Source: an uncultured SAR86 cluster bacterium (GTDB lineage: Bacteria; Pseudomonadota; Gammaproteobacteria; Magnimaribacterales; AG-339-G14). Taken from it: 64,000 bases of DNA. This document shows, one piece after another, positions 20,364 through 36,496 of this stretch. The stretch's first letter is position 1, and every line of letters starts with the position of its first letter. The stretch is taken from contig CACFWO010000001.1 in assembly GCA_902570035.1 (NCBI GenBank), forward strand, positions 62,001 to 126,000, in the 5' to 3' direction. The notes under the pieces are model-generated. The model saw nothing but the letters and a program-made list of their open reading frames with translations, made no database searches and was not told the origin of the DNA. The translations under genes and the position numbers were made by a program.

Positions 20364-21054
20364 TAATTAACTCTCTTAATAGATAAAAAAATGGATCTAT
20401 TCTACCTAAAACTTTTATGAAGAGGTCAAAATCAAATAAATTTAAAAACCTAATTATCCTCTCAGTTAAATCATAAATATTTTTTTCGGTATAAATTTCA
20501 AATGGAATATTATTGATATTCAAGAACTCTTCTAAAGTAATAAATTTTCCAATGAAGGGATTGTATTCAAAATTAGAATTTATCTTATTTAGTTCATGAT
20601 TAATTTGGTTAATAGAAGTTATGAAAATTTTTTTATTTAATAGGGTTTTGCTAATTTTTTTTGTTTTTAGAATCTTTATTTTTTTTAAAATGGCTTGCCA
20701 TGCCCCTACTTCATATACAATACCTAAAACAATGTACTTTGACTTTATTCCATTTTTTTTACAGAAATTTTGATGCATTCGGTATGCTATTTTTTTTGAA
20801 AAAACATAAGGTCTCAAGCTAATTTTTTTTCTCCATTTTATTAATTTGAAGTCAAACCTAAATTCAGAGTAACTTCTTACGTAGAATAGTTGTTTAATTT
20901 TATTATCGATGTCATAAGCACTTTGATGAGATTCAAATATGCCTTTTCTAGAAAATGAATAGGCAAAATTAACTGTAATTTCATCAGAAGAAATAGTTTC
21001 AAGATTTGAATTTAAAGCCATTACAATGTTTGATGTATCTGGAAATAAATTCAT
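20353..21054 (-). CDS. SDR-like protein lacking a visible cofactor-binding N-terminus
   Basis: 233 residues with low similarity to anything I recognise. The middle part resembles an extended SDR: FYVRSYSEFRF may be the catalytic-Ser strand, RPYVFSKKIAY contains a YxxxK pair (Y83, K87), and YIVLGIVYEVGAW follows where the substrate strand should be. The N-terminal GxxGxxG Rossmann motif is missing, so it is either a degraded SDR or a partner subunit. It overlaps the FAD oxidoreductase gene upstream by 4 nt (ATGA). That pairing recalls flavoprotein/SDR epimerase couples such as DprE1/DprE2. Confidence 0.7.
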   Translation of the reverse strand: MNLFPDTSNIVMALNSNLETISSDEITVNFAYSFSRKGIFESHQSAYDIDNKIKQLFYVRSYSEFRFDFKLIKWRKKISLRPYVFSKKIAYRMHQNFCKKNGIKSKYIVLGIVYEVGAWQAILKKIKILKTKKISKTLLNKKIFITSINQINHELNKINSNFEYNPFIGKFITLEEFLNINNIPFEIYTEKNIYDLTERIIRFLNLFDFDLFIKVLGRIDPFFYLLRELINEQ

Positions 21055-22379
21055 AGAAGCTCCTCTCTCGCAAATGAAATTGCTTGAGAAACAATTGCCA
21101 GGGTATTGTTTGACAAAATTGGTTTGGAAAAAGTCGAAGATCCTATAATGTAGACATTACTATTATCTATAAATTTGATACTTTCCTCGTCTTTACCGAC
21201 AAATTTTACAAGGTTAGAAGTGATATGTGCCGAACCTCCTGTAACCTTTTTAATATCTTCAGAATCAAATGGTTCAAATTCGGCATTTAACAAATTTTTG
21301 GCAAAATTTATTTTTCTTGATACTTCTTTATCTGTTACATGCCAATTTAAATGTAAGTTTTCTTTCTTATCGAGATAAATTAATCTATCGGGCTCTCTAT
21401 CTTGAGTACTTAAACAAAAAACCTGATTATATGAGCCTAAGCCTTTCACTCCAACTTTTAAAGCTAATAATGAAATTAGGATATTAGGATTTAAAAATAT
21501 GTTCTTAATATCCTTATAAGAAAGACCATTAGATCTAAACGAAACAATAGAATTCCTTATTTTTTCTTCCCTCAAAGAGATCTTATTGAATAGACTCTTC
21601 CTAAAAAAAATCGAAAATCTTTCATCTCTTGTTGGGTTGGGTAAAGAATCGATTGAATATTTGAAATGACCCTTTGAATTATTCTTTGCTTTAAGATGAG
21701 ATTTAAAAAAGTGTTCTTCAGTCTTTTTTGAGGAAAGTTTTGAAATCCCTATGGGAGAAATTGCGTGATCAGTGAAACTCACTCCATTTTCCTCACCATA
21801 AAGCCCAAGGGACCTAAGTATTATTTCTGTTGAGCCTAAAGCTCCAGCGGCAATGATTAACTTCTTACAAAAAATAGTTTCTTTGTCATAACTGGTCAGT
21901 TTAATTAAGCCGTTTTCTAATTTTGAGAAAGTTTTTACATAAAAATCTTTTAATGCTATGTCTTGAAAATCTTTTTTTCCTAACCTGGAAGTAATATAAG
22001 GAGTAAAGTAAGGGCGCACAGAGTAATTATCTTCATACTCTGACTCTAAAGATTTTTTACTTATTTTAAAAAAGTCGCTTGCAAAATTTTTACCTCTAAC
22101 CACGTGAGGGTTAGCTTTCTTAAAATATGACTCTTCATATCTATCTAATGAACCAAGAACACCATGCCAGATCTTAGAGGAGCCACCTAAAATAGAGTGA
22201 TTTATTGCGGGGCTTAAGTAATTTTCTGGAGGTTGAAATGAATATTGATTTATTTTACTTCTGCTTAAATTATCTACAACAAGGGTTGATTTAAGAATTT
22301 TTTTTGGAAGATTATCAACTATAGACTTAGCAGCCCATCCTGAACCAATTATTACCAGTTCTTTTTGAAAATTAGTCAT
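21051..22379 (-). CDS. GMC-type FAD oxidoreductase
   Basis: 442 residues from the ATG at 22379, where it overlaps the upstream gene by 8 nt (ATGACTAA); an upstream in-frame start at 22442 would overlap it by 71 nt. The FAD-binding motif is VIIGSGWAAK, ILGGSSKIWHG is the second flavin contact, and the C-terminal GMC signature is GGSAH followed by IIGSSTFSKPILSNNTLA. It oxidises an alcohol group, probably on a sugar in the island. Its immediate partner at 20353 is SDR-like, so a two-step oxidation/reduction epimerisation is possible. Confidence 0.85.
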   Translation of the reverse strand: MTNFQKELVIIGSGWAAKSIVDNLPKKILKSTLVVDNLSRSKINQYSFQPPENYLSPAINHSILGGSSKIWHGVLGSLDRYEESYFKKANPHVVRGKNFASDFFKISKKSLESEYEDNYSVRPYFTPYITSRLGKKDFQDIALKDFYVKTFSKLENGLIKLTSYDKETIFCKKLIIAAGALGSTEIILRSLGLYGEENGVSFTDHAISPIGISKLSSKKTEEHFFKSHLKAKNNSKGHFKYSIDSLPNPTRDERFSIFFRKSLFNKISLREEKIRNSIVSFRSNGLSYKDIKNIFLNPNILISLLALKVGVKGLGSYNQVFCLSTQDREPDRLIYLDKKENLHLNWHVTDKEVSRKINFAKNLLNAEFEPFDSEDIKKVTGGSAHITSNLVKFVGKDEESIKFIDNSNVYIIGSSTFSKPILSNNTLAIVSQAISFAREELL

Positions 22380-23487
22380 TAAGTATGAATTCATACATTT
22401 GGTTAAGATTTTTTTCCCAAACATTTTGCAGAGCCAAATCAATTTGGTCTCTTTTTTTCAGCTTATGTTCTGTTAATATATCTTGAAGCTGTAAAAAAAT
22501 ATTTTCTTTTTCGATTTCATATGAGAATTCTCCCCACTTTGGTAAATGAGACATATGACTATTTGATAGAATTGGCATGCCAGTAGCACAACATTCATAA
22601 TACTTATTTGGAATTAAAGTTTCATTGAATGACTCTTTTGAATAGGGAAGCAAAACAAATTGATAATTTTTAATTTGATTAGTAATCTCATCAGGAGAAA
22701 CCTGCCCAAAAAAATCTATGTTTTCAATTTTTAAAAGGTGATTTGCTTCTTCATGAATCATGCCAAAAATATGAATTCTAACTCTCTTATCATTTGATAG
22801 AATTTTGAAGATTTCAATATCACTGTTATGTCTTAAATTCCCAAAAAAGAGAACATTATATAAATCTCCTTGGTAATTATCGTTAGTAGATTTATTGATC
22901 CAGTTAGGTGAAACTCCTGGCTGCATTAAATGTAAGTTTATGATTTCTTTTTCTTTATTCAGGAACTCAAACATCAGAGCAGAGTCTGTGACCACTTTAT
23001 CGGAATACTCAAGAAATTTATTACAGTCTCTCTGATGAATATTTTGGTTCCATGGTAATTTCCACCAATTATGAATCACATCAAAAACAATTATTCTCTC
23101 CTTATTATTTATCTCAAAATTATTGCCAATTACGAAAGTATTATCCACGAAGCTATAAATTAAAGATTCTTTTTGTAATTTTCTCCAAAAAAAATACCAA
23201 TGAAGAAAGTTCCATAACCTGAAAAAAATATTTGTATTAGGTAAAAAAAAAGACTTTTTTATTCTCAACAATTTATTTTTTTTTATATTTTTTTTAATAG
23301 TATTGTCACTATTTAATTGTCTTAGAAATCTTCTAAGCAACTCTTTCAAGTCAGGGAATCTAGAAATAACTCTTTCTACAAAAATTACTTGATGACCTTT
23401 GCGAAGAAAAAAATTTGTAACCTCATGGTGTCTCTGCCATAGAAAATCCCATTTAATTTCAGAAAATATAATTACTTTTTTTTTCAT
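22372..23487 (-). CDS. Glycosyltransferase, GT-B fold (TuaH-like)
   Basis: 371 residues. The N-terminus reads IFSEIKWDFLWQRHHEV, the pattern of TuaH-like glycosyltransferases (DWxWQRxH). The C-terminal half has the GT-B donor region, with LFFGNLRHNSDI, LLPYSKESFNETLIPNKYYEC and CATGMPILSN. It acts in assembly of the surface polysaccharide; donor and linkage are unknown. Overlaps: 4 nt with the polymerase-like gene upstream and 8 nt with the FAD oxidoreductase downstream. Confidence 0.87.
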   Translation of the reverse strand: MKKKVIIFSEIKWDFLWQRHHEVTNFFLRKGHQVIFVERVISRFPDLKELLRRFLRQLNSDNTIKKNIKKNKLLRIKKSFFLPNTNIFFRLWNFLHWYFFWRKLQKESLIYSFVDNTFVIGNNFEINNKERIIVFDVIHNWWKLPWNQNIHQRDCNKFLEYSDKVVTDSALMFEFLNKEKEIINLHLMQPGVSPNWINKSTNDNYQGDLYNVLFFGNLRHNSDIEIFKILSNDKRVRIHIFGMIHEEANHLLKIENIDFFGQVSPDEITNQIKNYQFVLLPYSKESFNETLIPNKYYECCATGMPILSNSHMSHLPKWGEFSYEIEKENIFLQLQDILTEHKLKKRDQIDLALQNVWEKNLNQMYEFILND

Positions 23488-24635
23488 GCCTTTCTTAAGG
23501 ATTTATATTTACTCTCATCAGCATTAGCCAGAACAAGAAGAACGTAACCAGTGAATAATGTTGGCCAAAAAATGGGGGCTCCTGCCAGACCACAAATCAA
23601 AAAAAATAGAATTGGGAAAAACATTTTTTTTTCAGCTAAGAAAATTTGAAAGAGATAAAGTATAAAAAAAAGGACTCCAAAAAGACCATAATATAAGAAA
23701 GATTTTAATATTGGTGCATGGGCAGACCAACCATTTACGCCTAAAAGCGTTACGATATACTCAAAAGATGATCCAAATCCAAAAAGCAAATCATATGGTT
23801 CTGCGTTCATTACTATATTGTATGTTGAAGAAAAGAAATCTATTTTGCTAAGTAAGCTTCCATCAGTAACTAAATTTAAAGGATCGTATAAAAAATAAAT
23901 ATATATAGGCGTAAGAAACGACAAAAGAATTAATGTAGTCCTAATAGGATTTCTTATACTTAAATACCTCAGGAACAAAACTACCAAAGTAGAGATTATC
24001 GCCGCTCTTGCCATTGTAGTAATAAGAATTAAAAACAAAATAATCATAAATAATCTTCTTTTTGCAAAGTTTAAGTATGTTGAAGCAATGATTAAATATC
24101 CAAGTAGCATACCTGTTACGTTAGTAGTTGAAAAAAAACCAACTTTTTTAGCGTCTGTTCTACACCAGTAATTCAGGAAACAATCTGGTTCAAGAAAGTA
24201 TCTATAAAACAGATCCAAAGAAAATATCAAAGTTATTGTTAAGAAAAAATAATATAAAAAATTACTCGGATCATTTATTTTCAGTTTACTGAAATGAATA
24301 ATTATAAAAGTCTGAAAAATGAATAGGAATGGAGTATAGGATTCAACATTAGCTTTTTGAAAATTTATTGCAAATGAATCAATATTTTTTAAAGTAGAAA
24401 ATATGAATATATTTGTCCAAAAAATTCCATAAATTAAAAGGAACATTTCATTTTTTGTAACAGAAAGCTTGTTATATTTTTGGGTCGCTAATAAATGATA
24501 TAAGGGCAAAAAAGCCCATACGGATAATATAAATAATCTAATCAGCGGATTTGATGCGTTAAAAAAGATACTTGATAATAAAACTAACATCAAAACTGAT
24601 GTATTTTGCCTCTTTGTTGGGCTATTTAAAGACAT
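23484..24635 (-). CDS. O-antigen polymerase/ligase-like membrane protein (Wzy-like)
   Basis: 383 residues, with about ten hydrophobic segments and one large periplasmic loop (DLLFGFGSSFEYIVTLLGVNGWSAHAPILKS) before the last helices. This is the O-antigen polymerase/ligase topology. The adjacent Wzz-like gene makes polymerase more likely than ligase. It uses a lipid-linked repeat unit flipped to the periplasm. Sequence conservation in this family is very low, so the call rests on topology and context. Confidence 0.8.
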   Translation of the reverse strand: MSLNSPTKRQNTSVLMLVLLSSIFFNASNPLIRLFILSVWAFLPLYHLLATQKYNKLSVTKNEMFLLIYGIFWTNIFIFSTLKNIDSFAINFQKANVESYTPFLFIFQTFIIIHFSKLKINDPSNFLYYFFLTITLIFSLDLFYRYFLEPDCFLNYWCRTDAKKVGFFSTTNVTGMLLGYLIIASTYLNFAKRRLFMIILFLILITTMARAAIISTLVVLFLRYLSIRNPIRTTLILLSFLTPIYIYFLYDPLNLVTDGSLLSKIDFFSSTYNIVMNAEPYDLLFGFGSSFEYIVTLLGVNGWSAHAPILKSFLYYGLFGVLFFILYLFQIFLAEKKMFFPILFFLICGLAGAPIFWPTLFTGYVLLVLANADESKYKSLRKA

Positions 24636-25555
24636 TATTTTGTGATTATAAATTTAAAAATTTTTGGTTGATGATTTTCTGGTCTTAAAACAGCCAAAGA
24701 AAAAATAAAAAAAATAGAAAAGAAAATACCTAGAAACAGACTTAGAATTGCAATCAGAATTCGATTTGGTGAATAAATATTTATAGGAGTAAAGGGAGAA
24801 TCAATTACTTCAAAAGAATAATAATCAGAAGAATTTATTAGGGCGAGATCTTCATATTTCTTTCCAATTAAGGATGTTAATGAATTTCTTATTTCAGCGA
24901 AAGAACTTTTGGAGAATTCTTCCTGTAAGAAAGTGATACTTGTGAGCAGCTCTTTTCTATCTCTCTTTCTTTGGTATTCATCAACCTTACTTAAAACAAG
25001 ATTCATCCAATTTTCTGCAACATAAGGAGATATATGCTTTATAGATACTTCTAAAGTATTGTCTTCATCTTCTTCAAAAAAGAGATGATTTTTGAGAAAG
25101 TTTTTATGTGAGTCCAAAAATGAAGGTTTCTCATAAAGCCATTCATTTTTTTTTGAATCATAAATAGATTCTTTGAAACTAAGGATTCTTTTTGAAGAAT
25201 TATAACTTTCTACAGCTTCTAATTGTTCAAGAAAATATGGTTCATTATAAATTTCATTGAAAAAATCTCTGGATACAATGATTTGTTTAAAATTATTATT
25301 ATCACTTCCAGGATTTAAAAAACCACCTAGAAGTCCAGATGACTGCGGTAAGGAGATGCTTGAATTATTAGTTAAAACCTTTAACTTTATGAGACTTGAA
25401 CTTAGGTAAGTATTTTGAATGAAAAGAGAAACTGAGGACCCTAATAGAAAAGTAAAAAGAGAAAAAAGTAAAATAAATTTTGTATTTTTTAAAATTATTT
25501 TAATTAATAAATAGAAATTAACAGAATTATCTTCCTCAATAAAATTATCGTTCAT
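24635..25555 (-). CDS. Wzz-type chain-length determinant
   Basis: 306 residues. A first membrane segment lies at about 29-51 and a second at about 269-292, with a periplasmic coiled domain between them. SPFTPINIYSPNR before the second segment is the Pro-rich Wzz motif. The protein lacks the cytoplasmic tyrosine kinase domain of the Wzc type. It sets polysaccharide modal length together with the Wzy-like protein, whose start overlaps its stop by one base. Confidence 0.88.
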   Translation of the reverse strand: MNDNFIEEDNSVNFYLLIKIILKNTKFILLFSLFTFLLGSSVSLFIQNTYLSSSLIKLKVLTNNSSISLPQSSGLLGGFLNPGSDNNNFKQIIVSRDFFNEIYNEPYFLEQLEAVESYNSSKRILSFKESIYDSKKNEWLYEKPSFLDSHKNFLKNHLFFEEDEDNTLEVSIKHISPYVAENWMNLVLSKVDEYQRKRDRKELLTSITFLQEEFSKSSFAEIRNSLTSLIGKKYEDLALINSSDYYSFEVIDSPFTPINIYSPNRILIAILSLFLGIFFSIFFIFSLAVLRPENHQPKIFKFIITK

Positions 25556-25578: not shown

Positions 25579-26403
25579 TTAAAAAAAGGATTCTATATTC
25601 TTTCTTGGGAAAAAGTTAAATTTTCCCCCTCTAGTAACATTATAAACTTTAATATGTTTATATCGACAAGATAATAATTCTGCTGAGTGTTTAAAGGCTT
25701 TCTCTTGTTGATTTAGTTTTGGCTTGTTCCACTTTTCTCCTTTTTTTCTGTACCCTTTTATAAAATGATTTTGCGTTTTATCACCTAATAAATATTCTTG
25801 ATTAAGATTCTCTTCTGTCTTAAATTCAAAATCCATACCAATGAATAGAATTTCTTCGTAACCTAAAAACACTGCTAATTGTAAAGCGCTGTATGTTACA
25901 GAATAACCACAAAAAATTTTTTTTGATGGGTTTAAAGAAAAAAATTGTTTATTGTTTTTTGGAGTTACATAATTAAAGTAGTAAACATTAGACTTTTTTA
26001 TTCTTTTAAGTTGTCTGTACCAAGCAATTAGACTCACTATTTTTGGATTTTGTGATGTAAATCTTGAAATCTCTTCCAAATTTTGAGAAAGCACTAAATA
26101 GTCTTCGCAGAGATAAAAATCAGGTCGCCAAGAAGTTTCTTGAAAAGCTAGATAGATTTTATTAAAAGCAAAGAAGTCCGCATTCTGAATTTTTTCTAAG
26201 TCTTCAAGTCTTAATGAAGGTCCATTTCCAACAATTACCGCTCTTTTATTATTTTTTTCTTTTTTTAAGATGTTGAGTGCGTTTTTTAGCTTTTCAAATT
26301 CTCCTATATTGAAAATATACAGAATTATGTTTAGTTGTATCAAAAGAAATCTGAATAGTTCAATTGGATTGGAGATAATTTGTAACAATTTTTTCAAATA
26401 CAT
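25579..26403 (-). CDS. Sialyltransferase/MptE-like (DUF115-GT42 fold) putative glycosyltransferase
   Basis: 274 residues. An amphipathic/hydrophobic start (12-33) is followed by IVGNGPSL (57-64), FFAFNKIYL (77-85), SVTYSALQLAVFLGYEEILFIGMDFEF (two quoted parts: SVTYSALQL and GMDF at 189-192) and NHFIKGYRK (His213). The order GNGPSL ... G-(M/I)-DF ... HxI matches the MptE-like DUF115 family and the Campylobacter Cst sialyltransferases (GT42). In Cst-II the His of HYI is catalytic. Its place after a CMP-sugar synthetase and sugar-modifying genes suggests that it transfers the CMP-activated sugar made by them. That donor assignment is inference. Confidence 0.75.
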   Translation of the reverse strand: MYLKKLLQIISNPIELFRFLLIQLNIILYIFNIGEFEKLKNALNILKKEKNNKRAVIVGNGPSLRLEDLEKIQNADFFAFNKIYLAFQETSWRPDFYLCEDYLVLSQNLEEISRFTSQNPKIVSLIAWYRQLKRIKKSNVYYFNYVTPKNNKQFFSLNPSKKIFCGYSVTYSALQLAVFLGYEEILFIGMDFEFKTEENLNQEYLLGDKTQNHFIKGYRKKGEKWNKPKLNQQEKAFKHSAELLSCRYKHIKVYNVTRGGKFNFFPRKNIESFF

Positions 26404-26407
26404 CCGT

Positions 26408-27328
26408 TTAAATATATTTGAAAAGATTAGCTAAAGTATTTTGGTGAACAATCTCTGTTACAAAATCTAAATTGTTTGCATTATGTGAGCCTAAGATTAC
26501 ATTTTTGAAATTCATTAGTTTTGAACTTTTGCTCAAAGGCTCTTCCTCATATACATCAAGCGCCACAGAACTAATATATTTATCTTTTAAAGCTTGTATT
26601 AAATCTTTTTCACAAATTAATTTTCCTCGTGAAACATTTATTATCGAAGATCCTTTTTTCATAAATGAAATAGTATTTTTATTGATTATGTGATGATTAG
26701 ATTCATTCAAATCACAGGCTAAAATTAAATAGTCTGATTTTTTTAATAAATTTTTAAAAGTTAATCTTTTTGCATATTTAAAACTAGATTTTTTAATTAA
26801 TGGATCATTAAAAAATATATTTGCCTTCAAATTTTTACATCTGAATCCTATTTCCCTACCTATTGATCCAAAACCCAATATGCCAATATTTTTATTTACC
26901 ACTCCGGAAGAAGCGGTTTTTGGCCATTGACCTGAACGAACTAGTCTATCTGTGAGAGTTATATTGCGACTTAAATTAAGAAGATAACCAACTGCAACTT
27001 CCGCAACTGCATCACTAAAGGCTCCAGGAGAGTTTAATACAGGAATTTTGAACTCTTTTGCTGCGCTTAAATCAATGGAATCTATTCCGCTACCCCATTT
27101 AGAAATTACCTTTAATTTAGGATAAAACTCTTTCAAAACTCTGTGAGTAATCAAATCATCGCCTGCCAACCAACCATCAATTTTGCCAGCATATGCCAAG
27201 GCTTCATCTTCTTTTAAATACTGATTTACTTTAGGAAAAACTGCTTTGAAACCCCTTTTTGAAATTTCCATGGAAAATCTCTTTTTTTCTTTAAGCATCA
27301 TCAAATTTGATACCAAAATTTTTTTCAT
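26408..27328 (-). CDS. D-isomer-specific 2-hydroxyacid dehydrogenase
   Basis: 306 residues. The NAD-binding motif is GILGFGSIGREIG. The catalytic trio is visible as Arg in INVSRGKLI, Glu in DVYEEEPL and His in GSHNANN, so it should interconvert a 2-keto and a 2-hydroxy acid. The N-terminal lid and substrate domain are complete. It overlaps the CMP-sugar synthetase gene by 4 nt, so it belongs to that module and may act on a sugar-derived 2-keto acid rather than on 3-phosphoglycerate; it is far shorter than SerA. Confidence 0.9.
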   Translation of the reverse strand: MKKILVSNLMMLKEKKRFSMEISKRGFKAVFPKVNQYLKEDEALAYAGKIDGWLAGDDLITHRVLKEFYPKLKVISKWGSGIDSIDLSAAKEFKIPVLNSPGAFSDAVAEVAVGYLLNLSRNITLTDRLVRSGQWPKTASSGVVNKNIGILGFGSIGREIGFRCKNLKANIFFNDPLIKKSSFKYAKRLTFKNLLKKSDYLILACDLNESNHHIINKNTISFMKKGSSIINVSRGKLICEKDLIQALKDKYISSVALDVYEEEPLSKSSKLMNFKNVILGSHNANNLDFVTEIVHQNTLANLFKYI

Positions 27329-27981
27329 ATTATTTTGATTAAAGCTTTTGCAATTTTTAAGTCCTGCTCATCCTTTATAACATGTCCTGATAAGCTAGAT
27401 ACTTCAAAGAATCCAATCTTCCCTTGATAGGTTGCACATTTATTTTGTTCTTTTGCTTTCAAAAATTTAGATCTCCTCCATCCAGTCAAACTCCAAGTTA
27501 TTCTCTGAGTGGGTAAAAGATCTTGAGAATTAGTTTTTTCTAAGAAAGAAAAATTTACTGGTTTATTCTTGTAGGCAACCTCTATTTTATCTTGTATGTA
27601 TGAAAGCAAAACATCATAGTCTGTTTTAAAAAAATGGTTAGAAAAATTTTTGACTTCTTTGGTTGTAAGCAATGGAGCAATTGAGTGAACTTGAATTAGA
27701 TTTGTGCATTCATTTTTTATCAAAAACTCCTCAACAAACTCTTCACTAGTTGCAGAGTTATCTCCAAGATTCTTCGGTCTAAGATGAAAATCGACTTTGT
27801 GTTTAATTGCATATTTCTTAAAGATTTCACTCTCAGAATTTACAAAGATCTTATCAAAGCATTCAGCTTGTTTACATTTAACAATTGCTCTTTCAATTAA
27901 TGTAGTTCCATTTATGATTCTTAGATTTTTTTTCTTTAATCTTTGACTGCCCAGTCTTGCAGGTATCATTGCAACATTCAT
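27325..27981 (-). CDS. CMP-sugar synthetase (NeuA/PseF-type cytidylyltransferase)
   Basis: 218 residues. The N-terminus AMIPARLGSQRLKKKNLR is the CMP-binding P-loop of acylneuraminate/3-deoxy-octulosonate cytidylyltransferases. RPKNLGDNSATSEEFV matches the next conserved block, and QVHSIAPLLTTKEV the catalytic one. It activates a 2-keto (ulosonic) sugar acid, or a related sugar, with CTP. It is less like KdsB than like the NeuA/PseF/LegF group. No NeuB-like or KdsA-like synthase is encoded in the window, so the sugar is unidentified. Confidence 0.85.
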   Translation of the reverse strand: MNVAMIPARLGSQRLKKKNLRIINGTTLIERAIVKCKQAECFDKIFVNSESEIFKKYAIKHKVDFHLRPKNLGDNSATSEEFVEEFLIKNECTNLIQVHSIAPLLTTKEVKNFSNHFFKTDYDVLLSYIQDKIEVAYKNKPVNFSFLEKTNSQDLLPTQRITWSLTGWRRSKFLKAKEQNKCATYQGKIGFFEVSSLSGHVIKDEQDLKIAKALIKII

Positions 27982-27985
27982 TTTT

Positions 27986-28762
27986 TTATTTTACTAGGTT
28001 TATGATTTTTTTAGAGTTTTTAAAGTTTCTATTGAATGCGAAGCTCCGCATTGGTATTTTCAATAAATCGTTATTTATATAATTGGGATCTAAACCTGAG
28101 AGAGCAAAATATTTTCCTTCGGCTTCAGTTAGAATTAGGTATCCAGCAAAATCGTCCCAAGGCATTGCTTCGTCGTTGATACAAAGGTTCAATCTTCCCT
28201 CAGCTACGTAACATAGACTTAAAGCCTGAGATCCTAAATTTCTTACCTTTCCAAGAGAAAATAATTCATTAAATAATTCTGAGTTACTGAGATTCTTTTT
28301 TAGAAACCCTGTGCTAATGCTTAGTAAATTTGAATCCGTATCTAGATTTTCAATTTTATTAAAGTTCTTAAAGGCGCCCTTATGTTTAAATGCATGGAAA
28401 ACTTCTCCATGAATTAAGTCAATTACTAATCCAAAGACAACCGAATTATTCTCAATTTTAGCAATAGAAATAGAAATAAAAGGGAGGTTAGAAATCATGT
28501 TGGAAGTACCATCTAAAGGATCTATAAGCCAAAAACTTTCTCCTTGGACATTATTCCATTTATCTTCTTCCGAAAGAATTTCTTCCTTATCTCCAAAATA
28601 TTCTTTTATTTCTGATGAAATTATTTCATTGATTGACATATCCAAATTAGTTACAAAATCATTATCTGATTTTTGAGTGATTAATAACTTTTTATTATTT
28701 TCCAAAATTTTCATAGACTTTGTTTTTACTGAGTCAATAAAGTTAGTGAAATTATTTTTCAT
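27986..28762 (-). CDS. Inositol monophosphatase family phosphatase
   Basis: 258 residues. The metal-site motifs SEED (about 78) and DPLDGT (about 97) and the C-terminal WDDFAGYLILTEAEG are those of the IMPase/SuhB/CysQ family. In the CMP-sugar module it probably dephosphorylates a sugar phosphate before CMP activation, as KdsC does for Kdo. It overlaps the next upstream gene by 11 nt. True inositol or PAP phosphatase activity is less likely in this context. Confidence 0.9.
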   Translation of the reverse strand: MKNNFTNFIDSVKTKSMKILENNKKLLITQKSDNDFVTNLDMSINEIISSEIKEYFGDKEEILSEEDKWNNVQGESFWLIDPLDGTSNMISNLPFISISIAKIENNSVVFGLVIDLIHGEVFHAFKHKGAFKNFNKIENLDTDSNLLSISTGFLKKNLSNSELFNELFSLGKVRNLGSQALSLCYVAEGRLNLCINDEAMPWDDFAGYLILTEAEGKYFALSGLDPNYINNDLLKIPMRSFAFNRNFKNSKKIINLVK

Positions 28763-29495
28763 TTTTATTTATAGTGATTTTATTTGATACAGAAAAATTT
28801 GAAGATAGTTGAAAATGTTCATCAATAGGCAATTCAATCAATTTGCTAATACCCCCTGAGGAGACCCAGTGTCCTTTTCTTAAACCTAAACTGTATTTTT
28901 TTGACTCTAGTAAAATATCGTATAAAACTCCTTCAATTGAAAAAGCAAAATTTTTAGAATCTCCTATCTCCTGAGGTATTCTGTCTATTGTTACTTTTAG
29001 TCTTTTTTTAAATATTTCCTCAGATAGTTTAGTCTCACGACCAAGTATGAGAAACCCGCTTGCACAACAATCTGCAATTAAAAAATATAGTCCTGATTCT
29101 GGAAAGTTTTTTGAAGAATAAGGAATTTCAATTGCAGGAGCAATCAAATCAAAAAAATCCAGAGCTTTAAAACAAGACTTTTCTAGGTTTATGTTTTCAA
29201 CATCTTCTGAGAGCCTAAATGCAATCTCCAACTCACCTTGAGGATTTTTCAAGGAATCTGGCAAAAAAATTTCTTTTTTTTTATAAAAAAAATTATTTTT
29301 ATTAATTGGTCCTAAATAAGAGCTTTCAGTTTTGAAAGCTTTCTGAGTTGATTTAGTTGTCCCTCCAACTTTCCATGCTGAAATAAGTTCTGACTTTTCA
29401 GATAGTGATTTCTGTATTTCATATGCTTTTAATTTTGTTTTTAAAGATTCTTCTTTAATTTGGCTAATTATTTTATTCCTTTCTGAAAAATTCAT
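28752..29495 (-). CDS. 2-keto-4-pentenoate hydratase / FAH-like family protein
   Basis: 247 residues. ISAWKVGGTTKS (about 37-48), GELEIAFRLSED with its metal-binding Glu, and GLRKGHWVSSGG match the MhpD-like hydratase/decarboxylase branch of the fumarylacetoacetase fold. Relatives add or remove water at 2-keto acids or cleave them. In this module it may make or trim a 2-keto-3-deoxy sugar acid. A 4-nt overlap with the SIS gene indicates co-translation. The reaction is inferred. Confidence 0.8.
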   Translation of the reverse strand: MNFSERNKIISQIKEESLKTKLKAYEIQKSLSEKSELISAWKVGGTTKSTQKAFKTESSYLGPINKNNFFYKKKEIFLPDSLKNPQGELEIAFRLSEDVENINLEKSCFKALDFFDLIAPAIEIPYSSKNFPESGLYFLIADCCASGFLILGRETKLSEEIFKKRLKVTIDRIPQEIGDSKNFAFSIEGVLYDILLESKKYSLGLRKGHWVSSGGISKLIELPIDEHFQLSSNFSVSNKITINKNEK

Positions 29496-30064
29496 TTCCC
29501 ATCAACCCGGTAAACACTTTTGCCAATTATCATGTCTACCAAAGTTGTTATCCATATCATATGAATACCCTCAACTATGTTGTAAGCTTCAGAATCTACC
29601 CAAAAGTTTATATTTCCTTTTTTCTTCAGAGAATTATTAGGTTTTTTCCCCGTAAAGGTAATGAAGTCAATATTGTTTTCCTTTGCAAAATCTGCTCCCA
29701 ATAAAATATTTGGCGACTCTCCACTTACACTAATAAAAAAAACTAAGTCTTCCTGGTTGCCATAAATCTTCAAAGTCTCTTTGATCCAATTTTCATATCC
29801 CAAATCATTTGAAATTGCAGTTATGTATGAGGGATCATGAAATGTTGAGGACTTAACTTTAGCTTGTTTTGTAAAATCTAAGGCAGCGTGAGATGAAATT
29901 GAGGAACTGGCACCATTTCCAAAAAAAATTAATTTTCCATCTAATTTCTGTACTTCTAATATTTTATTTTTTGCTTGCTCCAAACTATCAAATAACCAAT
30001 CTGGATTGATATTTTTTTCATATTCAGAGTAATAATCATTTAAAAATGAAATATAATTTTTCAT
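29492..30064 (-). CDS. SIS-domain sugar isomerase (GmhA-like)
   Basis: 190 residues. The SIS phosphosugar motif is GNGASSSISSHAALDF (about 49-64), with FISVSGESPNILLGADFA as the second loop. It is related to phosphoheptose isomerase, but GNGGSAAEAQHMSAE of the true GmhA (encoded at 47476) is replaced, so a different ketose/aldose phosphate is expected. It overlaps the neighbouring genes by 4 nt on both sides and is part of the CMP-sugar module. Confidence 0.88.
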   Translation of the reverse strand: MKNYISFLNDYYSEYEKNINPDWLFDSLEQAKNKILEVQKLDGKLIFFGNGASSSISSHAALDFTKQAKVKSSTFHDPSYITAISNDLGYENWIKETLKIYGNQEDLVFFISVSGESPNILLGADFAKENNIDFITFTGKKPNNSLKKKGNINFWVDSEAYNIVEGIHMIWITTLVDMIIGKSVYRVDGK

Positions 30065-31062
30065 CTATCCATCCAGATTGCATTTTCATAAACATCATCT
30101 ATGAGCTTCATTATAGTTTTGGCATCATCAAATCCTGAGTAAGGATATTTAATTCCCTCCTTACAAGCACTTATGAAAGTGGACATTTCTTTTTTCCAAG
30201 AATTGTTCTCATTATACTCAAAAGTAAGATCGTCCTCACTATTGTTTACCTTGCCCCCCCTTTCAGGATGAATTGTCAAGATCTCATCTCCATAATTCCC
30301 TGAGCTTGTTCTTAAGCCGTTCAATACAATCGATCCCTTTTCTAAAAAAATTTCTAAACTAAATAGATATCGCCATTGTGTAATGGTGCTGTGAAGTGAG
30401 GCTGCTAATCCATCCTTTTTAGACATTAAGTTTAAAAAAGCATTATCTTCAACGCCTTTAATATTTAAATAATTACTTGAGAGAACAGATTGAACAAAAT
30501 CAAATCCCCCAGACAGGAAGTTCATAAGGTCAAGGAGATGTATGCCTTGATCAATAAGTATTCCTCCTCCATTAAGTTCTTTATTACACCTCCAGCTAGT
30601 TTTGTAAGAGTCATTTACTTCCTTTCCATATCTACCTCTCATCCAAAGAACTTTTCCTAGATTATTTCCATCTATCAGTTCCTTAATCTTGATTACTGAA
30701 TCGTGCAGCCTATGATTAAATCCATAAGCTAAAACACAATTTAAATTAGATTTAGATAATAGTTTTTCTATTTCTGATAATTCTGCGAGTGTTCTGGAAG
30801 GAGGTTTTTCACAAAAAACATTTTTATTTTTTTTTAATGCTTCGAGGGTATAAATAGGAGCAAATTTTGTTGGGGTACTAATAAGGAGGGCATCAGAAGA
30901 ATCAATTAATTTGCTTACATCTTCAAAATAGGCCAAATCTTGATCAAAATTTATTTTTTTTTGAGGTTCATAGTATCCAGAAAATGTGATCCCATCTGTC
31001 ATATCGAGGATTTTCTTTCTCAATAATGCAAACTGTCCGAAACCGATGAATCCTATTTTCAT
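30061..31062 (-). CDS. Gfo/Idh/MocA-family sugar oxidoreductase
   Basis: 333 residues. The N-terminal Rossmann domain begins IGFIGFGQFA; the family motif EKPPSRTLAE holds the catalytic Lys, and QGIHLLDLM corresponds to the substrate-site D/H segment. It is expected to oxidise or reduce a hydroxyl group of a sugar or nucleotide sugar with NAD(P). It is the first gene of the CMP-sugar module, overlapping the divergent-PAP2 gene before it and the SIS gene after it by 4 nt each. Confidence 0.9.
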   Translation of the reverse strand: MKIGFIGFGQFALLRKKILDMTDGITFSGYYEPQKKINFDQDLAYFEDVSKLIDSSDALLISTPTKFAPIYTLEALKKNKNVFCEKPPSRTLAELSEIEKLLSKSNLNCVLAYGFNHRLHDSVIKIKELIDGNNLGKVLWMRGRYGKEVNDSYKTSWRCNKELNGGGILIDQGIHLLDLMNFLSGGFDFVQSVLSSNYLNIKGVEDNAFLNLMSKKDGLAASLHSTITQWRYLFSLEIFLEKGSIVLNGLRTSSGNYGDEILTIHPERGGKVNNSEDDLTFEYNENNSWKKEMSTFISACKEGIKYPYSGFDDAKTIMKLIDDVYENAIWMDR

Positions 31063-31460
31063 AAAGATAACTTAAAAAATATAAATCCAACCAATGAGCC
31101 TAAAACTATCCCAGAAAATGCTTCTAAAACTGAATGACCTATGTTTTCTTTTAGAGAAATTGGATCTCTGCTAAGTTCATTGATCTTTTTAGCGTGGTCC
31201 CCTACCTTGTTTCTTAAATCAGTTGAATCAATAAAAATTATCAACGTAATGCCCAATCCAATCAAAAAAGCCGGATGAGCGGCTCCATTTGTAAATCCTA
31301 CGAAGGAAGTTACAGATGAAGAAATAGAGTTATGAGTACTAGGAAATCCTCCTAATCCGATATGTTTTAGAGATATTTCCTTATTTCTATAACAGTTAAC
31401 CAAAAATTTCATACCTCCTGCTGAAATATATGCAATAAATGGCACAAGAAAATAAAACAT
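31059..31460 (-). CDS. Divergent PAP2 (DUF212) family membrane phosphatase
   Basis: 133 residues from the ATG at 31460, which overlaps the upstream stop by one base (TGATG); a longer start at 31529 would overlap that gene by 70 nt. GGFPSTHNSISSS is the PSxH phosphatase motif, and KENIGHSVLEAFSGIVLG carries the second His. Three to four membrane helices are visible. In mycobacteria a PAP2-type phosphatase follows the UbiA-type phosphoribosyltransferase; here that transferase lies two genes upstream (32504). It may dephosphorylate lipid-linked phosphoribose. Confidence 0.85.
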   Translation of the reverse strand: MFYFLVPFIAYISAGGMKFLVNCYRNKEISLKHIGLGGFPSTHNSISSSVTSFVGFTNGAAHPAFLIGLGITLIIFIDSTDLRNKVGDHAKKINELSRDPISLKENIGHSVLEAFSGIVLGSLVGFIFFKLSL

Positions 31461-32503
31461 CAGATTTTTAGATTGTTCTCTAAACACCAATTTATTGAGT
31501 TCAACATGCCTTCTTTTAAAGAAACGCAAGGTTTATATCCCAAGACGGCCTTAGCTTTCTCAACGGAACAAGCAATATTTTGATTCATTTCAGATAAAAC
31601 ATGTATTTTTTGAATATAGATTCCGAGAGATTGTGAAGTATAGTCTATCAACCTAGCGGAATCAGAAATAAAATTGGGTAGTCTTAATTGTGTTTTAGAA
31701 ACTTCCATAGAAAACTCATTACGCATAAGATCCTTTATTGTCCCAACAATTTCGTTCATTGAATATGGTTTCTCGTCTGCTATCCAAAAAATTTCTCCGT
31801 TTTTATCAAAATATTCAGCAGCTAAAATTACTCCTTCAACTAAATTATCTACATAAGACATTGATCTTAAATTTTCCCCTGTACCAATTAGTGGAAATCT
31901 ACCACTTCTCACCATAGAAAAAAATTCTGATTGTCTTTTCGGTTGATCAGGCCCATAAAACCAAGGCGCTCTTATTATGGAGAAATTAGTAACCTCTTGC
32001 TGCTTTGATAAATTGGTAAGGTTTAATTCCATTCTCATTTTTGATCTTCCATATCCCATGTAAGGAAAATAAGGTGAACTCTCTGTAAATAGTTCATGAT
32101 TGTTTTTTGTATACCCGTTAGGAGAATTTGAAGACATAGAAACAAATTTTATTAAGCCGTTTTCTATAGATTTTTTTGCTAAATAGCTAACTCCAATGTT
32201 GTTTATCAAATTAAAATCCGATTGATTGAATAATTTTGGGTGTATTATTCCAGCTAAATTAAATAAAGTAGCCCCTTCTGAGTTTTCAAGAAATAAATCT
32301 ACAGATTTCTTATTAGTAAGATCACCATATGAAAAGGAAACACCTTTTTCAATAAACGCAGATAACAACTCTTCTTCTGATTTATCTTTGATAAAAAGTT
32401 TTATATCAGAGAAATTTAAACTAGTTGAACCGTCGAAAATTTTTCTTAAGAAAGCTTTTCCTAACCAACCAGAGGCTCCTGTGATAAGAATTTTATTGCT
32501 CAT
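31460..32503 (-). CDS. NAD-dependent epimerase/dehydratase (extended SDR)
   Basis: 347 residues. The cofactor motif TGASGWLGKAF is at 7-17, the Ser strand is KFVSMSSNSPNG, and MGYGRSKMRME has the YxxxK pair; APWFYGPDQPKRQ is the following strand. It sits directly between UbiA-like and divergent-PAP2 genes with no spacers, so it may be the reductase of a lipid-linked pentose epimerase pair (the DprE2 role) or a nucleotide-sugar epimerase. Confidence 0.87.
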   Translation of the reverse strand: MSNKILITGASGWLGKAFLRKIFDGSTSLNFSDIKLFIKDKSEEELLSAFIEKGVSFSYGDLTNKKSVDLFLENSEGATLFNLAGIIHPKLFNQSDFNLINNIGVSYLAKKSIENGLIKFVSMSSNSPNGYTKNNHELFTESSPYFPYMGYGRSKMRMELNLTNLSKQQEVTNFSIIRAPWFYGPDQPKRQSEFFSMVRSGRFPLIGTGENLRSMSYVDNLVEGVILAAEYFDKNGEIFWIADEKPYSMNEIVGTIKDLMRNEFSMEVSKTQLRLPNFISDSARLIDYTSQSLGIYIQKIHVLSEMNQNIACSVEKAKAVLGYKPCVSLKEGMLNSINWCLENNLKI

Positions 32504-33373
32504 CTAATTAAAAAAATTTATTGAGAAAATAAAGACCATCCATAGAAAAACTGTAATGAAGAGCTGCTTGTCCTTCAAAAGAAGATTTATAGGATCGGAT
32601 GAAACATTGGTTTTAAAAGAAAGTTGAACATATCTCAAAACTCCAAAAAAAACAAAAATGCTAGAAAACGGGAGAAGCTCTGAATTAAATTTTAGAATTG
32701 CGTAATTTGAGAATGTAAATAATACGTAGGAAGTTATTGTCGTTGCAGAGAGGATTCCTATCGATGTACTTAAGAATTCATTTGAGTAATTTTTAAAAGA
32801 GCTTCTAAGTTCACTAAAGGGTTTTTTCGTGATATCAATTTTTCTTTTAACAATGACGATTAAAAGCGACGCAGAGCCTATAGTGAAAATCATCCAAGTA
32901 GAAGGAAAAGAGGATATTATTGAGGCGCCTATCAAAATTCTATATACGTAACCTGAAGCAACTATAAAGATCTCCAATAAAGAAAAGTTTTTTAAATAAA
33001 GCGTATACAAAATGCTTTGTAGAAAATAAAGAGCAATTAAAGAATTTAAAAAACTATTTCCTAAAATAAATAATCCTGGGACAGTTAATAAAGTTAATGA
33101 AAATAAAGAAAAAATGGCATGTTTTCCATTCAGTTCTTTTGATGCAAATGGTCTGTTCTTTTTTTCTGGATGATTAGAATCCTCTTCTCTATCAAACCAA
33201 TCATTCACTACATAAATAAAGCTAGTGACAAATGAAAATAGAAAAAAAATGTAAAATGAAGAAATTAAAACCTCATAATTTAATTGATCTGCTTCTATTA
33301 AAAGAGGAATAAAGATTAAAAGATTTTTTAACCATTGCTTTATTCTTAATAGATTATAGATTTTGTAAATCAT
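32504..33373 (-). CDS. UbiA-family prenyltransferase, decaprenyl-phosphate phosphoribosyltransferase type
   Basis: 289 residues and eight or nine membrane helices. The Asp-rich motif NDWFDREED (57-65), followed by HPEKKNRP, is the form found in 5-phosphoribosyl-1-pyrophosphate:polyprenyl-phosphate transferases (Rv3806c-like) rather than in UbiA or heme O synthase. The second conserved loop is YTLYLKNFSLLEIF. The expected product is polyprenyl-phosphoryl-phosphoribose, the precursor of lipid-linked arabinofuranose or ribofuranose. Adjacent PAP2, SDR and flavoprotein genes fit the next steps. Confidence 0.87.
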   Translation of the reverse strand: MIYKIYNLLRIKQWLKNLLIFIPLLIEADQLNYEVLISSFYIFFLFSFVTSFIYVVNDWFDREEDSNHPEKKNRPFASKELNGKHAIFSLFSLTLLTVPGLFILGNSFLNSLIALYFLQSILYTLYLKNFSLLEIFIVASGYVYRILIGASIISSFPSTWMIFTIGSASLLIVIVKRKIDITKKPFSELRSSFKNYSNEFLSTSIGILSATTITSYVLFTFSNYAILKFNSELLPFSSIFVFFGVLRYVQLSFKTNVSSDPINLLLKDKQLFITVFLWMVFIFSINFFN

Positions 33374-33384
33374 TTTAATATTTT

Positions 33385-34785
33385 CTAAATTCTGCTTAAA
33401 AACTTTCTTGCATTCATATCAGCTAAAGCCATAATCGTTCCTTGAGGGTTGACTGATGGTGAATCAGATAATATCGAACCATCAGAGATGTGAATAGAGT
33501 CATCTTCCCATAAATGACCTTCAGGATTTAAGGCAAAACTGCTTCTAGCACCTCCCATTTGCACAGAAGAAAATAAATGTATTGTCATCAAATTCAGCTT
33601 ATTAAGTTTTTTAAAATTATATTTCTTTATATCCTCATGAGATTTGAAAGAAATAGGTTCTTGAATTGAGGGAAATAATGTCTTTGCTCCAGACTTGAAA
33701 AGAAGTTTCCCAAGATTGTTTATGCCTCTTTCAAGATTAGTGATATCTTTTTTTGTAAAATTAAAAGTAACAAATGGAGATTTAAAATATTTTAAAGACC
33801 TAACATTTCCTGATCCTTCTGGAGATATCATGCAATAATATGTAGCTAAGTTTTCCCATTCTTTTAAAAATTCAATGTTGTTTGTATCATTTAAAGCATT
33901 AGCTAAGTATTGCTTTGAACTTATTGAGCATCCAATGCTTATTTCAGGAGAAAACTCTTTCACTTGATGAACCGGTACTCCCATCTTATTGAAATTAACT
34001 TTTTCATCAAATAGGGCAGTAAATTTGAAACTGGGATGTAATTTTAATCCCTTACCGATAAATCTACTTTTGAATCCACTTTTTTGTAGAAGGAAGGGAG
34101 TATTAATTGCCCCACATGCAACAAATAAGTAATCACAAAAATATTTTTGGATTTTTTTATCTTGATCAAAAAAATGAATAATATTACTTTTTTTATTTTT
34201 CTCTATTTTGAAAACTTTTGTATGAGTTTTGAGTGTCCCGCCAAAATTAATAAATTTTGGAATGTAAGTTTCTGTCATAGACTGTTTTGTACCATTTCCA
34301 TCATCGTCATAGGAATACCACCGCGGGATCTCAGAACATGCCCATCCTAATTTTTCGCATCCCTCTGAAATAATGCTTGATGCTCTTGGTATGAGAGAAT
34401 CAGGCATATACGAAATATTTAGATTATCTTCGATATCTTTGAAAGACTTATAAAGTTCTTCTCTATCAAATGATAAATTATTTTTATTTTCCCATTTAGA
34501 TAAAATTTCTTCAGGAATACGATGATAAAGTCCACTGTTAATTTCACTTCCCCCTCCGACACAATTTCCTTCTGCATAATTAATTAATGGCCTGCCCAAT
34601 GTCATTGTCGTGCCAGAGTTTTTATATTTTTCTGTCATTTCTTGGGTGTCGTATCTATCAGAAACTTTATAACTTCCTCCTTCTTCCAGTAAAAGGACCT
34701 CATGCCCTGCTTGAGCAAGTCTAAACGAAGATATGCTTCCACCGGGTCCAGAGCCTATAACAATAATTTTGTATTTATTTTTCAT
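33385..34785 (-). CDS. GMC-family FAD oxidoreductase
   Basis: 466 residues. The FAD motif VIGSGPGGSISSFRLA (about 9-24) is followed by LEEGG and by EGNCVGGGSEINSGLYHR. The C-terminal half has the catalytic His in IHLFSSVQMGG and the closing HISDGSILSDSPSVNPQGT. It is related to cholesterol-oxidase-like GMC enzymes rather than to the VAO-type DprE1. Its position beside the phosphoribosyltransferase suggests oxidation of a lipid-linked pentose; this is inference. Confidence 0.88.
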   Translation of the reverse strand: MKNKYKIIVIGSGPGGSISSFRLAQAGHEVLLLEEGGSYKVSDRYDTQEMTEKYKNSGTTMTLGRPLINYAEGNCVGGGSEINSGLYHRIPEEILSKWENKNNLSFDREELYKSFKDIEDNLNISYMPDSLIPRASSIISEGCEKLGWACSEIPRWYSYDDDGNGTKQSMTETYIPKFINFGGTLKTHTKVFKIEKNKKSNIIHFFDQDKKIQKYFCDYLFVACGAINTPFLLQKSGFKSRFIGKGLKLHPSFKFTALFDEKVNFNKMGVPVHQVKEFSPEISIGCSISSKQYLANALNDTNNIEFLKEWENLATYYCMISPEGSGNVRSLKYFKSPFVTFNFTKKDITNLERGINNLGKLLFKSGAKTLFPSIQEPISFKSHEDIKKYNFKKLNKLNLMTIHLFSSVQMGGARSSFALNPEGHLWEDDSIHISDGSILSDSPSVNPQGTIMALADMNARKFLSRI

Positions 34786-35453: not shown

Positions 35454-36496
35454 TAAATTAAAAAATATGGAACAATACTTAGTATACCTTGCTTCAATTT
35501 CGATTGATGCTTAGATCCTGAAATATTTCCATCGAGAATATCGTTCCTATTTTCTACATACCAATCGTAAGTTTGAATAAACATTTCAACATTGGAATAT
35601 TCTGAATTAAAACCAAGTTCTTTTTTTGCCTTGCTTATATCAAAATACATTGATTCTCCATACATTAATGAATGGTATGGTCCCAATGGTGAAAGTCTTA
35701 AAAAAGAAAAAAAGTTCATCATTAAAGAAGTAAATCTTTTTGGAATGCCTACTACTCTACTTGAAGAATTTGAGTGTTTTATCAGTGACTCTAACATTTC
35801 TCTCATTGAACAAAAATTTTCAGCCCCAACATTATAGATTCCTGGAGAGTTCACTAAGGAAGCAGAATAACAAGCGCTCGCAAGATCATCAGAATGAATA
35901 AACTGGTACAAATTTGACCCAGACCCTAAAACAGGAACATTTTTATTTTGATAAATCCATTCAAATAAGATTTGAAAGATTCCTAATCTTCCTGAACCAA
36001 TGATAGTTCTAGGCCTAATAATGCTTATGTTCAGTCCTTTATTTATATATTCTTTGCACAATAATTCTGCTTCATATTTAGCCTCTCCATACGCTTCTTG
36101 AGGTTTAGGAATAGTAGATTCAAAAACTGGATTACTTTCTGGCACTCCAAAAACTGCACTTGAAGAAACAAATACAACTTTATCCACGTTTGCTTTTAGG
36201 CAAGAATCCAATAAGACATCAGTACCCTTATAATTTACTTCCCAAAATAGTTTTTTATTTTTCGCTATGGGAACTTGCGCAACATTATGGTGGACTATTT
36301 TTACATCTTTTAAACTTTGTTGGAGTAAGTTCTTATCAAGAATATTTCCTTCAATGGAGAGCAAATTTTCATGAGAAAAATGCGGTAAATTTAAGTCATA
36401 ACAAATTACTTTTTCATCTTTCTTTAACAATAAGCTCATTAATGAAGAACCAAAAAAACCAGCCCCTCCAGTAACCATTACACTAAGTTTGTTCAT
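35453..36496 (-). CDS. NAD-dependent epimerase/dehydratase (extended SDR)
   Basis: 347 residues from the ATG at 36496; a TTG two codons earlier is in frame. Motifs: TGGAGFFGSSL near residue 10, VVFVSSSAVFG for the Ser strand, and EAYGEAKYEAE for YxxxK. The C-terminal part (about 240-260) contains a hydrophobic patch. It overlaps the 768-residue membrane protein by 14 nt. It acts on a nucleotide- or lipid-linked sugar; it is one of two SDRs flanking the UbiA/GMC/SMR group. Confidence 0.87.
   Translation of the reverse strand: MNKLSVMVTGGAGFFGSSLMSLLLKKDEKVICYDLNLPHFSHENLLSIEGNILDKNLLQQSLKDVKIVHHNVAQVPIAKNKKLFWEVNYKGTDVLLDSCLKANVDKVVFVSSSAVFGVPESNPVFESTIPKPQEAYGEAKYEAELLCKEYINKGLNISIIRPRTIIGSGRLGIFQILFEWIYQNKNVPVLGSGSNLYQFIHSDDLASACYSASLVNSPGIYNVGAENFCSMREMLESLIKHSNSSSRVVGIPKRFTSLMMNFFSFLRLSPLGPYHSLMYGESMYFDISKAKKELGFNSEYSNVEMFIQTYDWYVENRNDILDGNISGSKHQSKLKQGILSIVPYFLI

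Follow-up and report, generated by a model that had tools for sequence, protein, structure and literature searches.

The gene cluster

We analyzed a 64,000-nucleotide stretch of DNA from an uncultured SAR86 cluster bacterium (GenBank assembly GCA_902570035.1, contig CACFWO010000001.1, positions 62,001 to 126,000; hereafter the window), in which seven genes between positions 25579 and 31062 form a putative module for the synthesis and transfer of a cytidine monophosphate (CMP)-activated acidic sugar. The source genome is a 1.14 Mb draft in 18 contigs that is 87.5% complete, and its relatives have small genomes of about 0.7–1.8 Mb. Listed from the first gene of the module, the genes are:

30061-31062, minus strand: Gfo/Idh/MocA oxidoreductase (PF22725/PF01408)
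29492-30064, minus strand: SIS-domain, GmhA-like sugar-phosphate isomerase (PF01380, PF13580)
28752-29495, minus strand: FAH/MhpD-fold enzyme (family profile to MhpD, predicted fold)
27986-28762, minus strand: inositol-monophosphatase-family (IMPase) sugar-phosphate phosphatase (PF00459, 3e-39)
27325-27981, minus strand: CMP-sugar synthetase of the NeuA/KdsB family (CTP_transf_3; PF02348, 5e-22)
26408-27328, minus strand: D-2-hydroxyacid dehydrogenase (PF02826, 1.4e-46; PF00389)
25579-26403, minus strand: MptE-like/DUF115 protein of GT42-Maf fold, 274 amino acids (PF01973)

From the Gfo/Idh gene to the MptE-like gene, the successive spacings are -4, -4, -11, +4, -4, and +4 bases. A first-pass annotation of the window, made from the sequence alone, had described seven overlapping or near-adjacent genes as one unit, and this description holds, since the open reading frames (ORFs) lie at these coordinates, on one strand and -11 to +4 bases apart. 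Its family assignments were also borne out, six of them by Pfam and NCBIfam and that of the FAH-like gene, which gave no match when searched singly against Pfam, by a family profile and a structural model compared with MhpD. The next gene after the MptE-like gene is Wzz-like (24635-25555), and the module sits within a surface-polysaccharide locus.

Recurrence of the module

We compared 83 neighbourhoods of related synthetase genes from plasmids and GTDB species genomes; the GTDB relatives were retrieved with an alignment query, and the window synthetase sequence alone as query retrieved none. In single-query BLAST, the hydroxyacid dehydrogenase was detected most often (64 neighbourhoods), followed by the IMPase (62), Gfo/Idh (57), SIS (54), the MptE-like transferase (42), and the FAH-like protein (17). 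When the neighbourhood proteins were clustered, the count for FAH rose to 39, and three more partners proved recurrent: a methyltransferase in 29 neighbourhoods, an SMP-30 lactonase in 20, and a YhcH-family protein in 12. The recurring core consists of the CMP-synthetase, the D-2-hydroxyacid dehydrogenase, the IMPase, Gfo/Idh, and the GmhA-like SIS protein.

All four core partners of the synthetase are present in 35 of the 57 long loci and at least three in 45 of 57. As a control, 20 stretches around NeuB/KdsB-type genes, 19 of them from module-carrying genomes other than the source genome and one from the source genome itself, were scored with the same profiles, and none (0/20) contained three or more core families. 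The core profiles were trained on module loci, so the scoring favours these loci; the gap to the controls is nonetheless very large, and the co-occurrence of the core is beyond chance. The core genes are mostly encoded on the same strand as the synthetase (225 of 242) and at most 5.5 kb from it (228 of 242). Gene order varies among loci, and the six-gene order of the window was found again in four of them (L036, L043, L044, and L045). According to the record titles, the hosts include members of the Pseudomonadota, Verrucomicrobiota, Planctomycetota, Hydrogenedentota, Omnitrophota, Bacteroidota, Bacillota, and Thermodesulfobacteriota. The earlier proposal of a self-contained CMP-acid-sugar module, together with the expectation that its gene families would occur together in other genomes, is supported for the core.

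In a search that was independent of the synthetase-based one, the Gfo/Idh protein was compared with 72,556 plasmids, and its top three matches were exactly the three plasmids that carry close synthetase relatives. Plasmids of Lawsonia and Rhizobium jaguaris were rejected as module carriers because they encode only a Gfo/Idh relative, plus a weak SIS match in R. jaguaris. Relatives from the same order as the source organism, with synthetases 31–35% identical, encode Gfo/Idh and a hydroxyacid dehydrogenase on the same short contigs. The family is accessory, being carried by 4 of 369 genomes of the class to which the window belongs.

Several of the loci differ in their details. Loci L034 and L035, from metagenome-assembled genomes labelled Colwellia and Oceanospirillaceae, have the same layout, nearly equal synthetase identity, and a short IMPase ORF (126 amino acids) in both, a likeness that may reflect recent transfer or mis-binning. 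A contig of the same class as the source organism (G257; L126:3795-5577) carries two tandem synthetase relatives with Gfo/Idh and SIS genes nearby. In a Neomarinimicrobiota locus (L112:9416-17403), the synthetase, hydroxyacid dehydrogenase, Gfo/Idh, and SIS genes are accompanied by a dehydroquinate-synthase-like cyclase, two SDR-like proteins, and a DUF4862 protein.

Absence of a linked PEP-condensing synthase

To our knowledge, all bacterial CMP-activated acidic sugars characterised so far (sialic, pseudaminic, and legionaminic acids and 3-deoxy-D-manno-oct-2-ulosonic acid, Kdo) derive their 2-keto acid end from phosphoenolpyruvate (PEP). The module resembles the corresponding routes (NeuB-NeuA, PseI-PseF, and KdsD-KdsA-KdsC-KdsB) in combining an isomerase, a phosphatase, a NeuA/KdsB-family synthetase, and then a transferase, and the GmhA-like SIS protein and the IMPase occupy the places of KdsD and KdsC in the Kdo route. 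In contrast to these routes, it contains no PEP-condensing synthase, and its core has two dehydrogenases, Gfo/Idh and the D-2-hydroxyacid dehydrogenase, instead.

The first-pass annotation had already pointed out that the window contains no such synthase, and the genomes were searched for NeuB and KdsA. No NeuB was found in the source genome at its 87.5% completeness. A single KdsA is encoded on another contig than the module (G000:C13) in a genome that also has its own KdsB-like gene (G000:C4) away from the module locus, an arrangement that does not contradict a new route. Two sets of module genomes were searched for NeuB, which was absent from 19 of the 28 genomes of the first and 15 of the 27 of the second; in four more genomes of the second set only weak NeuB hits were obtained, which coincide with ORFs resembling 3-deoxy-D-arabino-heptulosonate 7-phosphate (DAHP) synthase and were not counted as NeuB. 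With the DAHP-synthase-like hits set aside, 38 of the 55 module genomes other than the source genome lack NeuB. KdsA is mostly present in one copy per Gram-negative module genome and unlinked to the module, as expected for a housekeeping enzyme of lipopolysaccharide synthesis.

Some genomes with the module have neither enzyme. In Novosphingobium sp. NDB2Meth1, which has the full core, no NeuB, KdsA, or PF00793 protein was found, and the sole CTP_transf_3 protein is that of the module. Likewise, neither NeuB nor KdsA was found in Reichenbachiella faecimaris, which has the full core with the SIS and Gfo/Idh genes located just upstream. Metagenome-derived genomes, such as those of L044 and L064, are further examples. 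Therefore, at least some hosts must feed the synthetase without a NeuB/KdsA-type enzyme.

A further Novosphingobium genome, that of N. sediminis, contains the module and no KdsA; one divergent, partial NeuB match (1.6e-35) was obtained there, which lies within a frame of 378 codons and on a different contig from the module (G104:C25:47490-48053).

Synthetase and transferase

The nearest solved relative of the synthetase is the CMP-N-acetylneuraminic acid (CMP-Neu5Ac) synthetase 1qwj (profile match 1e-25), which together with the Pfam match makes it the counterpart of the NeuA/KdsB-family enzyme of the PEP-dependent CMP-ulosonate pathway. Its matches to the curated PseF and KdsB models are far below the cut-offs, and conserved K-NSQ-L-P and W-T-W residues are common to its relatives in the half that binds the sugar, the C-terminal one. 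By these sequence features, the synthetase is a NeuA/KdsB family member that constitutes its own subfamily. Two Pelagibacteraceae loci (L105:1612-6292 and L110:2240-7242) encode a distant synthetase relative next to an aminotransferase, a flavin adenine dinucleotide (FAD) oxidoreductase (PF01266), and an enzyme of the malate/L-lactate dehydrogenase family (PF02615), with a formyltransferase in L105 and a Gfo/Idh protein in L110. These sets may represent a second, different acid-sugar or acid module.

The MptE-like protein shares the fold and the GNGPSL motif of the GT42 sialyltransferases (CstII) and of the Maf/PseD flagellin transferases. Its profile matches CstII at 6e-6, and its structural model (predicted local distance difference test score, pLDDT, 90) gives Z scores of 12.9 to Maf (5mu5) and 12.4–12.5 to Cst-I and CstII, above those to unrelated folds. 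The GPS of the motif is invariant in the family, and His213, which the model places in the loop that precedes the last long helix, is nearly invariant and a candidate for the catalytic His of GT42. The predicted fold agrees with the GT42-type assignment of the first-pass annotation. In contrast to CstII and Maf, the protein has a single domain of 274 amino acids and is only about 13–18% identical to them over the aligned part. We propose that it is the CMP-acid-sugar transferase; its gene is adjacent and often present, but it belongs to a large family, and this specificity is putative.

Isomerase, phosphatase, and dehydrogenases

The SIS protein matches GmhA models at 4e-18 (64–66 bits, below the cut-offs of 209–265), with scores higher than those to KdsD/KpsF models, and its closest solved structure is the phosphoheptose isomerase 1tk9. 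The residues H59, D63, E165, and H168 are conserved and were aligned by eye to the His, Glu, Gln, His site of GmhA. The metal site thus appears to be altered to His-Asp-Glu-His, that is, GmhA-like with Asp and Glu substitutions.

The Gfo/Idh protein, the hydroxyacid dehydrogenase, and the IMPase keep the known catalytic residues of their families in nearly all relatives. In the IMPase, E65, D81, D84, and D203 are conserved in 57 rows of the alignment; K86, D171, and H175 of Gfo/Idh are conserved in at least 90% of 46 rows, and R234, E263, and H282 of the hydroxyacid dehydrogenase in at least 90% of 49 rows. Glucose-fructose oxidoreductase oxidizes C1 of its sugar to a lactone, and we propose that Gfo/Idh is a C1 dehydrogenase that would make an aldonolactone. 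The hydroxyacid dehydrogenase has the Rossmann domain of its family, and among its nearest solved structures are phosphoglycerate dehydrogenase, glyoxylate reductase, and 2-ketogluconate reductase. It has in common with PdxB, SerA, and 2-ketogluconate reductase the family, the Arg-Glu-His triad, and hydroxy/keto chemistry at C2 beside a carboxylate; unlike them, it is encoded in a polysaccharide locus beside a CMP-synthetase. SerA and PdxB convert a C2 hydroxyl to a ketone, and 2-ketogluconate reductase catalyses the opposite reaction; the module enzyme is accordingly a candidate for the oxidation of an aldonate to a 2-ketoaldonate.

The FAH-like protein and YhcH

The FAH-like family profile matches Escherichia coli MhpD at 3e-37, and the model of the protein (pLDDT 88) gives Z scores of 24.9 to 4-oxalocrotonate decarboxylase (NahK) and 24.2 to the vinylpyruvate hydratase MhpD (2wqt). 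Along with the fold, it shares with these enzymes the Glu-x-Glu...Glu metal site and a conserved Lys; E88, E90, E123, and K42 are invariant in the family. It differs from MhpD in being encoded in a surface-sugar locus and in lacking the MhpD aspartate (Asp78, numbering counted from 1sv6), which is absent from the aligned column, where F, Y, or a similar residue, aromatic or small, is found. On the tree, FAH is confined to one proteobacterial clade and therefore cannot be a general replacement for the synthase. The earlier suggestion that a 2-keto-3-deoxy-acid hydratase stands in place of the synthase was abandoned on account of this distribution and of the missing aspartate, and a general route must consequently rest on the core dehydrogenases, isomerase, and phosphatase. 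We propose that the FAH-like protein is a clade-specific tailoring enzyme that would use 2-keto acid enolisation chemistry.

FAH and YhcH share no locus (0 shared loci; Fisher p 3e-4). This exclusivity was considered as a sign of mutual replacement and dropped because the tree needs only one change.

A proposed oxidative route

We propose, with slightly better than even confidence, that the seven genes serve to produce a CMP-activated 2-ulosonic acid and to transfer it, and that its keto-acid end results from oxidation of an existing sugar and not from PEP addition. From the conserved module, the conserved active-site residues, the folds of two of its proteins, and the absent PEP synthase, we infer an order of steps, a substrate, a direction for each redox step, and a product. 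The GmhA-like SIS protein would convert a ketose phosphate to an aldose phosphate, from which the IMPase would strip the phosphate. Gfo/Idh would then oxidize C1 to an aldonolactone, which could open spontaneously or, where it is encoded, by the SMP-30 lactonase, and the D-2-hydroxyacid dehydrogenase would oxidize the C2 hydroxyl of the aldonate to yield the keto acid. This 2-keto acid may be tailored by the FAH-fold enzyme in the one proteobacterial clade that encodes it, and YhcH may open its ring in other hosts; in some loci, a methyltransferase may act as well. Finally, the NeuA-like synthetase would use CTP (cytidine triphosphate) to form the CMP sugar, and the CstII/Maf-like transferase would place the sugar into a surface polysaccharide. 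The predicted product is a non-3-deoxy 2-ulosonic acid that retains the 3-hydroxyl; it might, more speculatively, be a 4-deoxy acid if FAH-type chemistry takes off the C4 hydroxyl. The occurrence of SMP-30 in 20 loci fits a lactone intermediate. Similarly, E. coli YhcH acts as an anomerase on Neu5Ac (PMC8141875), so the YhcH genes of 12 loci are in keeping with a cyclic 2-keto sugar acid. That the distant Pelagibacteraceae synthetase adjoins other hydroxyacid-type dehydrogenases instead is counted in favour of the proposal as well. The first-pass annotation had suggested a different chemical route to the 2-keto sugar acid; this idea persists in that no PEP synthase is linked to the module, although the two dehydrogenases now replace the hydratase as its key element.

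Several points weigh against the proposal. The source genome does have a KdsA, and SMP-30 was not found in it. The carbon oxidized by Gfo/Idh could be one other than C1, and for many 2-hydroxyacid dehydrogenases the in vivo direction is toward the hydroxyacid. Some loci lack SIS or Gfo/Idh within the examined stretch, and the alternation of FAH and YhcH, being a single split on the tree, is not independent evidence of equivalent roles.

More tentatively, and at somewhat less than even confidence, we consider that the module represents a general PEP-independent oxidative route to CMP-ulosonates in at least eight phyla, which would give rise to non-3-deoxy or 4-deoxy acids and might account for orphan sugars like the 4-deoxy-2-hexulosonic acid of E. 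coli K3. The presence of this acid in the K3 capsule is given in the title of Dengler et al. (1988), as cited in PMC10433991, and the K3 capsule gene cluster was still undetermined in 2023 (PMC10433991). It is a naturally occurring ulosonic acid that is not 3-deoxy, as the product predicted for the module would be; E. coli genomes searched at the DNA level with the genes of the window gave no match. In the open-access literature we found no account of this gene combination or of a PEP-free route, most subscription journals being outside the search, and the capsule structure of S. fredii SMH12 was not found in the literature search. If the proposal is correct, plain oxidation leading to the same kind of activated sugar opens a new class of surface sugars, and counts of NeuB and KdsA underestimate which bacteria make acidic surface sugars. 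The module is a short, fully named gene set that is open to in vitro reconstitution.

Alternative explanations

The module might instead tailor an acid that is made from PEP in the conventional way. The likeliest such acid is Kdo supplied by the housekeeping KdsA, and the parallel would be the synthesis of the 8-amino sugar Kdo8N from Kdo. The SIS protein would then act like an arabinose-5-phosphate isomerase and the IMPase in place of KdsC, and the dehydrogenases would modify the chain. We regard this as unlikely. Most Gram-negative module genomes, that of the window included, do have one KdsA, and an isomerase of the SIS type, a phosphatase, and a CMP-synthetase belong to the Kdo route as well; however, this KdsA is usually single-copy and unlinked, the SIS protein scores higher against GmhA than against KdsD/KpsF models, the core is present in Bacillota too, and full cores occur with neither KdsA nor NeuB, in one case with the module's CTP_transf_3 protein as the only one in the genome. 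Tailoring of the Kdo8N type (KdnAB) pairs a pyridoxal phosphate (PLP)-dependent aminotransferase with the dehydrogenase; none is encoded in the module of the window, and an aminotransferase family was found in only 9 of the 83 neighbourhoods.

It is less likely still that the 2-keto acid comes from a pyruvate aldolase of the HpcH, DapA/NanA, or 2-keto-3-deoxy-6-phosphogluconate (KDPG) type encoded elsewhere, with the FAH-fold enzyme and the dehydrogenases adjusting a 2-keto-3-deoxy acid. Aldolases are common and FAH-family enzymes do act on 2-keto acids, but FAH occurs in one clade only and without the MhpD aspartate, and Gfo/Idh, SIS, and IMPase would be left without clear jobs. Of the gene families that recur near the synthetase, none was recognised as an aldolase, as judged from example sequences, with no dedicated search and with unlinked aldolases not searched for. 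Finally, the CMP-activated compound could be a small hydroxy acid or another acid, in which case the hydroxyacid dehydrogenase would reduce a keto acid ahead of the activation step; CDP (cytidine diphosphate)- or CMP-linked glyceryl or phosphonate groups that decorate polysaccharides offer a parallel. The separate synthetase subfamily, below all curated cut-offs and with its own motifs in the sugar-binding half, would be consistent with such a substrate, as would the distant relatives beside other oxidoreductases, an aminotransferase, and a formyltransferase. We nevertheless consider it improbable, because the nearest solved synthetase relative is a CMP-Neu5Ac synthetase, the partner transferase has a sialyltransferase fold, and the module is joined by a member of the YhcH family, in which the E. 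coli protein works as an anomerase on a 2-keto sugar acid.

Neighbouring genes

Several locus genes in the window regions 20353-24635 and 36483-38789 gave no match in the Pfam search; among them are genes for two membrane proteins, one apparently polymerase/ligase-like (23484-24635) and the other large (36483-38789). Upstream of the module lies a second cluster, which encodes a DUF212 (PAP2-like) protein, an epimerase/SDR, a UbiA prenyltransferase, and a GMC oxidoreductase in a row (31059-34785) and overlaps the Gfo/Idh gene by 4 bases. This gene set resembles a polyprenyl-phosphate sugar route of the decaprenylphosphoryl-arabinose type.

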